Assembly: GCA_020073385.1 (NCBI GenBank) | Contig: JAIQFH010000003.1 | Location: forward strand, 124,001-188,000 | Length of the DNA: 64,000 nt | Reading direction: 5' to 3' | Source of the DNA: Terriglobia bacterium | Lineage (GTDB): Bacteria > Acidobacteriota > Terriglobia > Terriglobales > Acidobacteriaceae | Part shown: positions 5,605 through 10,823 of the stretch, one piece after another | Position numbering within the stretch: position 1 is the stretch's first letter | Layout of the letters: the number at the start of each line of letters is the position of its first letter | The notes under the pieces: model-generated | Told to the model about the DNA's origin: nothing | The model's database searches: none | What the model saw: the letters and a program-made list of their open reading frames with translations, nothing else | Program-made: the position numbers and the translations under genes

Positions 5605-6720
5605 ATGACCAACGACCGCAAATTCCTCCGCCTTCGGGTCATCGCGCCGGTGCTCCTCATCTTGTTCGCGACATTCCTTCTACCCGGCGCGAGCCTCTAC
5701 TACAGCTATTCCGGAGGAAAATCCTGCACCAAGTGTCACGAGATCTGGCAGCCTTACCGCGACTGGCACGACTCCGCGCACCGCAACATCGCGTGCTCGG
5801 AATGCCACGGCGACGTCTTGACCCTTGACGCTGGCTTTCATTTGAAGAATATTCGCCAACTGGCCGCGCATCTGCGGGGAAAAATCCCCGAGCAAGTTCG
5901 CCTCAAGACGGACGACGTCCTCCAGATCGAGAAGCGCTGCGCCAAATGCCATCGTGAAGAATACGCAAGCTGGTCCGCGGGGCCGCACAGCGCCAGCTAC
6001 GCGAAAATCTTCCTGAGCAAAGATCACAACACTCAGACGCTCCTGATGGACGACTGCCTCCGCTGCCACTCCATGCACTTTCAGGGCAGCATCCGCGATC
6101 TGGTCACGCCGCTGAATAAAGAGGGACCGTGGCGCCTGACAGATTCCAGACTCGCCGATCAGCCCGCGATCCCCTGCCTCACCTGTCATCAAATGCACCG
6201 CCACGGCGACCCGCTCGCCCGCCCACCTGCGACGAAGCCAGACGATGCCGGCCCGCACGAGGAGTTAGCTCGGCCTTCTCTCGCGCTGTTCGACCGCCGG
6301 GAACAAGATTACGTTTCACTCGACCGTCTTCCGCTGCCCCAGATGCATGAAGGTACGCGCCTGGTGAAGATCAGTCCCGACCGGCGCCAGGCTCTTTGCT
6401 ACCAATGCCACGCCCCAGAGGCAACCGCCCAGGTTGGATCAGGCGACGACCGCACTCCCATCGGCGTCCATGAGGGCCTCAGTTGCTTCGCCTGCCACGA
6501 AAAGCACGGCCAGACGACGCGAGCCTCATGCACGACGTGCCATCCGCAACTCTCCAACTGCGGCATCAACGTTGAGACCATGGATACGACGTTCAAATCC
6601 CTGAAGAGCTCCCACAACGTGCATACGGTCAAGTGCATCAACTGCCACACCAAAGGCGTGCCAGAGAAAAAAGGCAAGAACCACGAAGGCCAAGAAGTCT
6701 CACGAAGGAATCCAGCCTAG
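5605..6720 (+). CDS. Membrane-anchored multiheme cytochrome c (9 CxxCH), NapC/NrfH-like
   Basis: N-terminal TM segment; CTKCH, CSECH, CAKCH, CLRCH, CLTCH, CYQCH, CFACH, CTTCH, CINCH. Confidence 0.85.
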   Translation: MTNDRKFLRLRVIAPVLLILFATFLLPGASLYYSYSGGKSCTKCHEIWQPYRDWHDSAHRNIACSECHGDVLTLDAGFHLKNIRQLAAHLRGKIPEQVRLKTDDVLQIEKRCAKCHREEYASWSAGPHSASYAKIFLSKDHNTQTLLMDDCLRCHSMHFQGSIRDLVTPLNKEGPWRLTDSRLADQPAIPCLTCHQMHRHGDPLARPPATKPDDAGPHEELARPSLALFDRREQDYVSLDRLPLPQMHEGTRLVKISPDRRQALCYQCHAPEATAQVGSGDDRTPIGVHEGLSCFACHEKHGQTTRASCTTCHPQLSNCGINVETMDTTFKSLKSSHNVHTVKCINCHTKGVPEKKGKNHEGQEVSRRNPA

Positions 6721-6773
6721 AGCTTTTCCTCTGTGTACCTCTGTGTCCTCTGTGGTTCAAGATTTTGGGGTCC

Positions 6774-6809
6774 AAAAACAAACGGCCCGCAGGCAAAACC
6801 TGCGAGCCG
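6774..6809 (-). terminator. Intrinsic terminator (minus strand)
   Basis: CGGCTCGCAGG-TTTTG-CCTGCGGGCCG followed by TTTGTTTTT on the minus strand; 11-position stem with one mismatch. Confidence 0.8.
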
Positions 6810-7068
6810 TCCGGTGGACTGTTGTGGATTGACCAAGAGGTGGTCACTCTACGTGGCCTCTTCGGCAACTCCGGGCTCCTGACCGACCTGCGTCAGGCGG
6901 AATCAATCCTTACTCACCGATAGTTTGCGGGCTGTAGCTTCAGGCGTTGTGACGCCCAAAGCCCCGCTTAGAGCAACCCGCTCTAAGTCTCAGCCACCTC
7001 ACCTGGTCTTTGGGTACATCTACTACTGCCTTCAGAACTTGTCATCAGACCACCTCCTTTCCGGTGTA
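6774..7068 (-). ncRNA. Candidate structured RNA / leaderless small transcript with short ORF and intrinsic terminator
   Basis: Hairpins 6967-6974/6980-6987 (8 bp perfect), 6943-6947/6952-6956 nested in 6929-6933/6960-6964, 6878-6883/6892-6897, long-range 7005-7009/7047-7051; terminator 6783-6809; TTGACG (7098-7103) with a -10-like TACTAATC (7075-7082) upstream; GGAAAGGAGGTGGTCTGATG. Confidence 0.45.
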
Positions 7069-7130
7069 AACGCAGATTAGTACGAAACGAGAGTCCGCGT
7101 CAATCGGGGGACCGCCGCAGATAACAACTC

Positions 7131-7262
7131 GTGTAGCCCCGGACGCCATCGTCTGGGGTTGCGCGCAAAGTGCGCAATGATGACTTTTGGCGCAGCGGGG
7201 GATGATGCGAGGGCACGCGTCGCTTCGCTCCGCGGGGCGGACGAGGCGTCCGCCCCTACACA
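7131..7262. repeat. BIME-like two-ended palindromic element (family A, copy 1)
   Basis: GTGTAGCCCCGGACGCCATCGTCTGGGG…GCGGGGCGGACGAGGCGTCCGCCCCTACACA. Confidence 0.85.
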
Positions 7263-7263
7263 A

Positions 7264-9126
7264 TCAGGGCAGCCCGAAGGTATAAATTGCGCTGCCCGCC
7301 GCGATGGCCACATATTCTCTTCCATCGACCGCAAACGCCATGGGCGCTGCATAGACGGCCCCGCCCATCTGAAAATGCCACAGCGGCTTGAGTGTGGCCG
7401 CGTCGAAAGCGATAAAGTTCCCTTCAGCGTCGCCGCTGAACACTAGGCCCCCGCCTGTCGACAGCACTCCCGACCAGGTCGGCGACGTGTGTTGAAACCT
7501 CTGCTTAGTCTCGCCAGTCGCTGGATCAATGGCCTTCAGGAATCCCAGATACGGTCTAGCCTCTTCCGACGGAAAGTACGCGCTGCCATAGAATGCGTGT
7601 CCAGCCTCATACGGCTGCGGCGCCGTGCTGAAGATGTCGCACTGATCGCGGGCCGTCACGTAGAACAATCCACTCTGCGGATCGTAGGTCGGAGCCATGA
7701 AGTTCGTCGTTCCGAGCGCACCGGGACAAACCGTGTGCCCTTCGAGCGTGGGTGAGGCGTTTTTGTTCGCGACCGGACGCCCCTCCGTGTCTTTCGAATC
7801 GCTCCAGGTCGTCTTGCCGTAGGGCGTCGCCGAGAGCAGCTTCCCGTTTGTGCGGTCGATGACATAGAAGTAGCCGTTGCGGTCGGCCTGCGCGATGAGT
7901 TTCTTGCCGCCGGCATCGATCAGCACGGGAACCTGGGTGGCATCCCAATCGTGCTCGTCATGTTTGGTGAACTGGAAATGCCAATTGAGTTTGCCGGTGT
8001 CGGCGTTTAGTGCGAGAAGGGAATTGCTATACAGATTGTCACCCGCGCGCCCTTCGCCTCGATTTGAAGGCGATGGATTTCCCGTCGGCCAGAAAAGCAG
8101 GTTCGTCGCCGGATCGTATGTGCCCGTGTTCCAGGCCGGAGCGCCGCCCACTTTCCACGACTCGCCTTCCCACGTGTCATGGCCGGGTTCGCCTGGACCG
8201 GGCACGGTGTAATAACGCCACTTGCGTGCGCCAGTCTCTGCATCGTAGGCGTCGATGAATCCGCGCACGCCGTATTCTCCGCCGGAAATGCCAATCACGA
8301 TTTCATTCTTCACCGCGAGGGGCGCAACCGTGAAGCTATGACCGGTTCGATAATCGGCCGCGGTCACGTCCCACACGACCGCGCCGGTTTTGGTGTCGAG
8401 CGCGATCACGTGCGCGTCCAGCGTTCCCAGAAAAACTTTGTCGCCAAGGATTGCCAACCCTCGATTCACGCGTCCGCAGCACGGACGAATGTCACCCGGG
8501 AGCTGCCGCTGATACATCCAGATGGGCCTGCCCGTGCGCGCATCCAGCGCAAAGGCGCGATCGTCCTGTGCGGTAGCGTAGAGAATCCCGTCCACGACCA
8601 GGGGAGTCGTCTCAAGCTTTCCCGTCGCTGCCGTTTGATATACCCACTTTGCCACCATGCTGTGCGCGTTGCCCGTGTTGATTTGCTCAAGCTTGCTGAA
8701 GCGCTGTCCGGAATAACTGCCGGAATAGGTCATCCAGTTCTGCGGTTCTTTCGTGGAATTGACCAGGCGTTCGAAGGTGACCTGGCCGTGGGCGGCAAAC
8801 GTCATAACCCAGACCAGGATGCCGCAGACCTGGATACGGTCCGCGACGATCTTTCCGGCTCTGGCCAACTCGTGGAAGAGATGCCCTTTCAGGGCCGCGT
8901 AAACACATCGACAATCGAAGGCCTTTAGGCCCCGTGGGATGCCGGGGCTAAAGCCCCCGAACTTGTTTGTGCTTTGACGCGGCGCTGAAGCGCCGCTCTT
9001 CCACGGTGGCGTCGACGCTTGTGCTAGTCCGCTCTTCCTCGGTTGCTCCAGTAGACAACCACTCGGTTGCTGCGGCAGACAACAGATCACGCCGTATTCC
9101 TTCAAGCGCAGAATCCGGGTGCTCAT
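7264..9126 (-). CDS. PQQ-binding beta-propeller / PQQ-dependent dehydrogenase-like protein (true start probably well downstream of 9126)
   Basis: WMTYSGSYSGQRFSKLEQINTGN, WEGESWKVGGAPAWNTGTYDPATNLLFWPTGNPSP, TWSGVLSTGGGLVFSGDAEGNFIAFDAATLKPLWHFQMGG. The first ~100 codons read through a repeat. Confidence 0.82.
   Translation of the reverse strand: MSTRILRLKEYGVICCLPQQPSGCLLEQPRKSGLAQASTPPWKSGASAPRQSTNKFGGFSPGIPRGLKAFDCRCVYAALKGHLFHELARAGKIVADRIQVCGILVWVMTFAAHGQVTFERLVNSTKEPQNWMTYSGSYSGQRFSKLEQINTGNAHSMVAKWVYQTAATGKLETTPLVVDGILYATAQDDRAFALDARTGRPIWMYQRQLPGDIRPCCGRVNRGLAILGDKVFLGTLDAHVIALDTKTGAVVWDVTAADYRTGHSFTVAPLAVKNEIVIGISGGEYGVRGFIDAYDAETGARKWRYYTVPGPGEPGHDTWEGESWKVGGAPAWNTGTYDPATNLLFWPTGNPSPSNRGEGRAGDNLYSNSLLALNADTGKLNWHFQFTKHDEHDWDATQVPVLIDAGGKKLIAQADRNGYFYVIDRTNGKLLSATPYGKTTWSDSKDTEGRPVANKNASPTLEGHTVCPGALGTTNFMAPTYDPQSGLFYVTARDQCDIFSTAPQPYEAGHAFYGSAYFPSEEARPYLGFLKAIDPATGETKQRFQHTSPTWSGVLSTGGGLVFSGDAEGNFIAFDAATLKPLWHFQMGGAVYAAPMAFAVDGREYVAIAAGSAIYTFGLP
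8920..9008 (-). repeat. Double-hairpin repeat (family B, copy 1)
   Basis: Minus strand: CCGTGGAAGAGCGGCGCTTCAGCGCCGCGT…GGGGGCTTTAGCCCCGGCATCCCACGGGG. Confidence 0.75.
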
Positions 9127-10160: not shown

Positions 10161-10823
10161 TCAGCCTTTCCAGTGGAAGGCCTGAGGCTGAGGGAGGCCC
10201 AGGTGAGCCAGCACGCGATAAGCAAACTCGCGAGCGAGTTCATCTAATGAAGCAGGGCGGTAGTAGAAAGCGGGGATCAAAGGAAAGATGGTCGCGCCGG
10301 CATCGGCGGCCCGGTACATGTTGCGGATGTGGATTTTGTTGAGGGGCGTCTCGCGCACGCAAAGCACCAGGGGACGCTTCTCTTTGAGCGTGACGTCGGC
10401 GGCACGTTCGATCAGTTGCGCGGCGACGCCGTTGGCGATGCGGGCCAGAGTGCCCACGCTGCACGGGATAACGACCATGGCATCAGCGGGATAGGAACCG
10501 CTGGCGACGTTGGCACCGATGTCAGCGTTCGATTGCACTTGAATTTTGCTCTTTGATGTTTTAGCGGACGAGCCGAGCACCTGGGCAACGAGATCGGATC
10601 TGCCTTTGAGGTCCAGTTCCTCGGCCATGACCCGCAACGCGCTGTCGGATGCGATGAAGTTTATGGTCTGAACGCGCTCATCGCGCTCGACGGCTAGCAG
10701 GAAGTGGCGAAGAAAGATAGCTCCACTCGCGCCAGTGGTCGCAACGATGAGATTTTTCGGCAGGTGATTGGGCACGGATGCCTCGAACTGAGGAGCATAG
10801 GTAGCGCACGAGGTAGAAGTCAA
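10161..10823 (-). CDS. ubiX: UbiX-family flavin prenyltransferase
   Basis: KNLIVATTGASGAIFLRHFLLAV; PADAMVVIPCSVGTLARIANGVAAQLIERAADVTLKEKRPLVLCVRETPLNKIHIRNM. Confidence 0.88.
   Translation of the reverse strand: MTSTSCATYAPQFEASVPNHLPKNLIVATTGASGAIFLRHFLLAVERDERVQTINFIASDSALRVMAEELDLKGRSDLVAQVLGSSAKTSKSKIQVQSNADIGANVASGSYPADAMVVIPCSVGTLARIANGVAAQLIERAADVTLKEKRPLVLCVRETPLNKIHIRNMYRAADAGATIFPLIPAFYYRPASLDELAREFAYRVLAHLGLPQPQAFHWKG

Follow-up and report, generated by a model that had tools for sequence, protein, structure and literature searches.

The window analysed here is a 64,000-nucleotide (nt) stretch of DNA from a Terriglobia bacterium (contig JAIQFH010000003.1), and the question raised by its minus strand at 6773–7070 is whether this segment encodes an RNA, a small protein, or both. 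A first-pass annotation had proposed a structured RNA with its own promoter and terminator and a tiny open reading frame (ORF), and had described the product as either non-coding or a small-protein transcript. Comparative evidence backs the first part of that proposal and supports a free-standing structured RNA gene of about 298 nt, with approximate ends, that has its own promoter and terminator. The RNA almost certainly belongs to a genuine family with a translated frame, and this structured RNA family is previously uncatalogued and absent from Rfam 15. The choice between a non-coding RNA and a small protein is refined by the finding that the frame is conserved and the peptide is not, and from its sequence the RNA looks like a translated regulatory RNA, neither a small-protein gene nor purely non-coding.

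The putative promoter features a TTGACG −35 box (7098–7103), given at first pass too and with its TTGAC kept in homologues, and a −10 box that is now best read as ACTAAT (7076–7081), separated by a 16-nt spacer and aligning with the TATACT/TAATAAT-type boxes of the homologues. A generic promoter scanner did not flag TTGACG-16 nt-ACTAAT, though the box pattern is conserved in relatives. The strong intrinsic terminator (6774–6813) consists of a 16-pair stem (6813–6779) followed by TTTTT, and its position is conserved in homologues. The segment 6774–7068 has a lower folding energy than 100 of 100 dinucleotide shuffles (z = −3.8) and occurs once in the source genome, and 51 of 101 relatives match it by DNA alone at E ≤ 0.01. 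Because of these three results the RNA is far beyond chance, and the segment, being single-copy, is not the degenerate repeat DNA that had been named as a possible refutation. An Rfam 15 scan of 6700–7130 gave no match even at E ≤ 5, including transfer-messenger RNA (tmRNA, RF00023) and the two acidobacterial motifs named at first pass, Acido-1 and Acido-Lenti-1. ARAGORN found neither a tRNA nor a tmRNA within the 64-kb window, and at the Rfam gathering threshold tRNAs were the sole matches in eight loci carrying divergent homologues. Literature searches, with limited coverage of subscription papers, found no description of the RNA.

An oriented alignment of the homologues shows that the promoter, a very strong Shine-Dalgarno (SD) sequence, the tiny ORF, a stop-codon hairpin, a 3' core, and the terminator are conserved, and that the middle is variable in length. 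Divergent relatives have a common 18-nt core, GAGGTGGCTGAGRCTTAG, and an exact search for this core with one genome per GTDB species recovered 112 stretches, nearly all with an SD and an in-frame ORF. Their hosts are Acidobacteriota plus about nine 'Deltaproteobacteria' metagenome-assembled genomes (MAGs) with a shorter, distinct form; MAG taxonomy labels, this one included, are those given in the record titles. A viral origin was considered and rejected, the exact 18-mer core having no match in IMG/VR. The exact-pattern set is blind to variation inside the 18-mer, and sets found without the 18-mer do show variation there. An exact-pattern search of the phylum found 3/396, which is a severe underestimate of the distribution. 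The 5' module was the basis of three search models. The first, R1, includes structure and matched 60 of 297 Acidobacteriota genomes with one copy each, and R2 matched 74 of the same 297. R3, a sequence-only model built on the most divergent forms, gave strong matches (E < 2e-5) in 79 of the 297, spread over 19 families with one strong match per genome, and it found the RNA in 35 of the 36 genomes of the window's own family. Homologues fetched from the newly reached families have the same plan. The true prevalence is probably higher than 79/297 because every enlargement of the models reached more families. No further convincing member was found in 148 genomes sampled from the phylum to which one of the 'Deltaproteobacteria' MAGs belongs; three weak matches there were inspected and judged false. 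The homologues are related, so none of the counts given here are counts of independent events.

The tiny ORF (6983–7045) has 20 codons plus a UAG stop; the strong SD, the ATG at 7045, and the 20-residue product MTSSEGSSRCTQRPGEVAET were all confirmed as first described. The frame was tested from an anchor that demanded no start, no stop, and no frame. In 154 of 155 distinct sequences the first start that follows the SD shares the frame of the core; the remaining sequence has an in-frame ATG four bases further on. Counted from the first G of GAG, the stop is found at exactly +15 nt in 155 of 155 (UAG 147, UAA 5, UGA 3). The ORF occurs in eleven different lengths between 11 and 22 codons, and stops are nearly always present in both other frames. 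Because the frame and the stop are kept at this rate over such a range of lengths while the other frames are rich in stops, translation is very probably under selection. The peptide sequence, as judged from codon changes, is not detectably selected: the synonymous share of changes between nearest neighbours is 28.4%, against a neutral 24.7% (38 synonymous, 96 non-synonymous; p = 0.32). AGT, TGT, and AGA codons predominate in the variable part, and the peptides are rich in Ser, Cys, Gly, and acidic residues and are unconserved. The RNAs of the 'Deltaproteobacteria' MAGs (L067, L095, L098, L132, L148, L149, L159, L170) have a Cys-rich ORF of 12–14 codons (MIDKCCDCEVAET and similar).

The ORF is itself part of the conserved structure, in which two helices, P0 and P1, both covary strongly. 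P0 pairs the 5' end of the RNA (CACN, directly before the SD) with the codon preceding GAG, which is the last variable codon of the ORF. In the window these strands are CACC (7063–7066) and GGUG (7000–7003), the latter being that codon plus the G of GAG. In 50 diverse homologues 93.5% of cells pair, and the changes are compensatory at pair 6/82, which adjoins the SD (CG 18, UA 16, AU 9, GC 5), and at pair 4/84 (AU 36, GC 8, GU 5). The covariation score of the structure in these 50 homologues exceeds all shuffles and all slid controls. The assignment of P0 is ambiguous in the most divergent families. In f18, f29, f56, f74, and f82, P0 is apparently shifted (GCC x GGY), and in L262–L269, which belong to these families, a conserved hairpin-like GCCGGGCGGGGUGGGACCCGCC lies just 5' of the SD and suggests a longer 5' part.

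P1 pairs the end of the ORF, GGUGNNNN, with the final conserved stretch ahead of the terminator, and a single base is usually bulged out. In the window the strands are GGUGGCUG (6991–6998) and CAG-U-CCACC (6813–6821), the latter adjoining the terminator. Compensatory changes are seen across families, as in GGUGGCUG x CAG(U)CCACC, GGUGACUG x CAG(A)UCACC, GGUGCCUG x CAGG(C)CACC, GGUGGCGG x CCG(G)CCACC, GGUGGCAG x CUGCCAC, and GGCGGCG x CGCCGUC. P1 is fully paired over its 8 positions in 38 of 42 distinct combinations, whereas 2000 permutations gave 17.2 on average and never more than 26. The automated terminator search chose wrong hairpins in many homologues, so the P1 strands were picked by hand from their position beside the terminator; this brings a mild bias to pairing, and the permutations use identical windows. 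Divergent homologues show the codons of EVAE[AT], at one point taken for a conserved peptide, changing with P1, and that candidate was dropped. The motif CAAUCCCAACAG, directly before the 3' strand of P1 (6822–6835 in the window, and in homologues), is conserved in several families with no partner assigned, and is possibly a protein or ribosome contact.

The remaining helices are more local. The CTTAGAGC/GCTCTAAG helix described at first pass is present at 6967–6974 and 6980–6987 and corresponds to P2, whose 5' arm CUUAGAGC (6980–6987) holds the UAG stop (6985–6983) and whose 3' arm is GCUCUAAG (6967–6974). By pair counts, P2 is general among the relatives of the window, conserved in part of the family, and variable elsewhere. 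The hairpin of GGCGT nested in GGGCT and the CCTGAC/GTCAGG helix are both in the sequence and form part of the predicted minimum-energy fold. A nested hairpin, P3 (6927–6966), forms the base of the length-variable middle domain and is part of the consensus fold of the genus, where some of its pairs have both partners changed. A further helix listed at first pass, GGTCT/AGACC (7005–7051), is not among the conserved pairings, which are P0, P1, P2, and a lineage-limited pairing of the SD with a downstream element termed A.

The extended SD, GGAAAGGAGGUGGUC (7048–7062), is complementary to the whole 3' tail of 16S rRNA, and 15–16 contiguous pairs are predicted with the tail GGAUCACCUCCUUUCU, which was taken from a genome of the same genus, the window genome's own 16S not being found by pattern. 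The 16S 3' end of relatives is GGCTGGATCACCTCCTTTCT and its partner in the RNA is GGAAAGGAGGUGGUCC. The median predicted energy of this pairing is −26.1 kcal/mol over 159 homologues, and the starts of the long ORFs in the window reach −19.6 kcal/mol at the strongest and have a median of −11.9. Lineages with an inserted base retain the rest of the complementarity (GGAGG-N-UGAUCC). One weak, truncated match of R3 (G344 contig 5, 3730715–3730740, plus strand) reads antisense to a 16S 3' end at 3730721–3730737 on the minus strand, and the other truncated matches of R3 cover the same model positions. The match to the 16S antisense is an independent confirmation of the SD complementarity.

Element A (UAGAGUGACCACCUCUUGGUCAAUCC, 6826–6851) features an anti-SD-like core, GACCACCUC (6837–6845), and is predicted to pair with either the SD or the stop-codon region. 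The core forms 9 contiguous pairs with the SD, which is equalled or beaten by 1 of 200 shuffles, and the flanks of A are complementary to the stop-codon hairpin. The predicted energies are −20.2 kcal/mol for SD x A and −26.8 kcal/mol for the stop region x A. The unconstrained fold, with P0, P1, and A on the stop-codon region, is predicted at −122.5 kcal/mol and the fold with SD x A forced at −118.0, so that the two states are at most 4.5 kcal/mol apart. Aligned members of the genus retain both pairings of A. Elsewhere in the family SD x A is stronger in some cases (L205, L269) and missing in others. In the folding models SD x A is a lineage-dependent layer over the general P0/P1 plan.

A ribosome-driven conformational RNA is the favoured reading because the frame is kept without its peptide, the SD matches the whole 16S tail, the end of the ORF is a closing helix, and there is no target gene. 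In the unoccupied RNA, P0 (5' end x last variable codon) and P1 (ORF end x 3' end) would close the molecule, and in the window's lineage A would swap between the SD (off) and the stop-codon region (on) in nearly isoenergetic states. A free 30S subunit would take the SD through up to 15–16 base pairs, and a ribosome translating the 20 codons would open P0, P1, and P2. A ribosome stopped at the fixed UAG would cover the stop region and thereby free A to mask the SD again. Translation would thus remodel the RNA, and the peptide would be a by-product. The balance tips slightly towards such ribosome-driven refolding, and an even chance is given to the fuller proposal, in which a structured RNA acts in trans and takes its conformation from ribosomes, with neither a metabolite nor a downstream gene setting it. 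Its output may be 30S buffering, an sRNA seed, or a protein partner. The most likely role would be to report or buffer free 30S subunits or initiation capacity, and this 30S-sensing role is put forward only tentatively. It is equally speculative that the RNA is a phylum-wide housekeeping RNA, translated solely for refolding, that detects free 30S subunits, or the intactness of the 16S 3' end, through its 15–16 base pairs and acts in trans by occupancy; a single passage of a ribosome through a mini-ORF whose sequence is arbitrary would then reset the fold.

Two results weigh against the ribosome-driven reading. SD x A falls in the best 5% of shuffles in 15 of 57 representatives, being clear in the genus of the window and in some families, absent in the 'Deltaproteobacteria' form, and weak in Edaphobacter-like genomes; the universal core must therefore be something other than masking by A. 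Additionally, the amino-acid test uses short ORFs and could have missed weak selection on the peptide.

Among the alternatives, a dual-function small RNA (sRNA) would use A or the variable middle domain to pair with target mRNAs, with translation as a side activity that gates the seed. The standalone gene with its terminator is consistent with this, as is the anti-SD-like core, which a possible hairpin, TGACCA-CCTCT-TGGTCA, would display; however, A is conserved across the family in neither sequence nor presence, and a role of this type is considered unlikely. The RNA might also be directed at 16S rRNA, its 15–16 nt of complementarity acting mainly as an antisense, either to titrate 30S subunits or to check the 3' end of the 16S, with the ORF serving only to release the bound subunit. 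The complementarity spans GGAUCACCUCCUUUC, beyond a normal SD, and some lineages extend it to CCAGCC (AAGGAGGATGATCCAGCCTATG). However, the start codon lies at near-optimal SD spacing, 7 nt in most homologues, and this spacing and the strict frame argue for real initiation, which makes a mainly antisense function improbable.

A small-protein gene, in which the peptide of 11–22 residues is the product and the folds regulate its synthesis, would account for the strong SD, the start, the conserved frame and stop, and the nearly invariant Glu-Val (GAG-GUG). However, the variable part changes amino acids at the neutral rate, the peptides differ twofold in length, the residue before Glu-Val varies so that the P0 base pair stays, and the last residues vary with P1. 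In L290 the Glu-Val is lost altogether (the peptide ends ...MGAASS) while P1 and the open frame are retained, and the peptide is most improbably the product. A role in cis, as leader or attenuator of a neighbour, suggested by a leader-like ORF followed by hairpins and a terminator, is ruled out to the point of being barely credible by the neighbourhood, in which the conserved unit has no following co-directional gene, the recognised downstream neighbour is convergent (a NUDIX hydrolase, 36 loci), the neighbours differ between genomes, and in one genome the RNA is inverted with respect to ubiX and NUDIX.

In loci of sufficient length ubiX is found upstream (23 loci), and this ubiX-upstream, NUDIX-downstream arrangement looks ancestral. 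In some loci a pyrroloquinoline quinone (PQQ) dehydrogenase, DNA ligase D, or other genes are inserted between the RNA and these neighbours. In the window, a PQQ dehydrogenase (7264–9126) lies upstream of the RNA in the same orientation, an ORF rich in CxxCH and resembling multihaem cytochromes (5605–6720) is convergent to the RNA, and no predicted gene is placed for cis regulation by the RNA. Between the RNA and a UbiX-like flavoprotein ORF (10161–10823) lie this dehydrogenase and a cytochrome c-like ORF. Directly past the terminator, at 6727–6754, (T)CCTCTGTG is repeated three times in tandem, and CACAGAG-type repeats are found likewise after L058 and L081. A GC-rich, repeat-like stretch (7205–7265, TCGCTTCGCTCCGCGGGGCGGACGAGGCGTCCGCCCC) lies between the PQQ dehydrogenase and the RNA promoter, and similar stretches, reading GCTCGCTGCGCTCGCGG, are found near the RNA in L011 and L012.

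To our knowledge, phylum-wide single-copy structured bacterial RNAs beyond RNase P, tmRNA, 6S, and SRP are rare. A frame kept for translation and not for its peptide, with no downstream gene, would if true be a new use of the ribosome, as the switch of an RNA machine. The RNA is also a testable handle on how Acidobacteriota, an abundant and little-studied soil phylum, might monitor translation capacity. In overall form the RNA resembles tmRNA (ssrA), which likewise occurs once per genome, measures about 300 nt, and has a short frame with its stop in a hairpin; the P1 helix, linking the 3' end with an internal strand, is a further likeness. The likeness of AAUCCC-N-ACAG-CCACC to a T arm and acceptor end had prompted tmRNA as a candidate, which was rejected, the source genome having a normal tmRNA elsewhere (171.9 bits). 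Unlike tmRNA, the RNA has no tRNA-like domain, CCA end, or known degradation tag, and its ORF has its own SD and start.

In fold-back type I toxin mRNAs, such as hok and Helicobacter aapA1, the SD and coding sequence of a short ORF are locked by long-range pairing with the 3' part. The RNA resembles these systems in the long-range pairing of its ORF with its 3' part (cf. PMC6733600). P0 and P1 covary, and masking of the SD is predicted in some lineages only. However, its peptide is hydrophilic and unconserved, no antisense RNA was recognised, and it is single-copy and phylum-wide where hok and aapA1 are scattered. A hydrophobic type I toxin was rejected on the composition and lack of conservation of the peptides. 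The dual-function sRNAs RNAIII/hld and SgrS/SgrT are regulatory RNAs with a translated small ORF and a C-rich, anti-SD-like loop. The present RNA has an anti-SD-like core and a small ORF whose conserved frame and fixed stop imply translation, and VcdRP (PMC8672173) is a further parallel. The peptides of these sRNAs are conserved or functional, whereas here the frame only is kept and the closing helices are made from the ORF. Extended SD sites in Staphylococcus aureus form unusually long SD-anti-SD helices, and small ORFs act there as sensors (PMC13009471). The helix predicted here is likewise unusually long; however, the S. aureus sites precede ordinary or leader ORFs that control a gene, whereas the present RNA has no controlled gene and matches the whole 16S tail.
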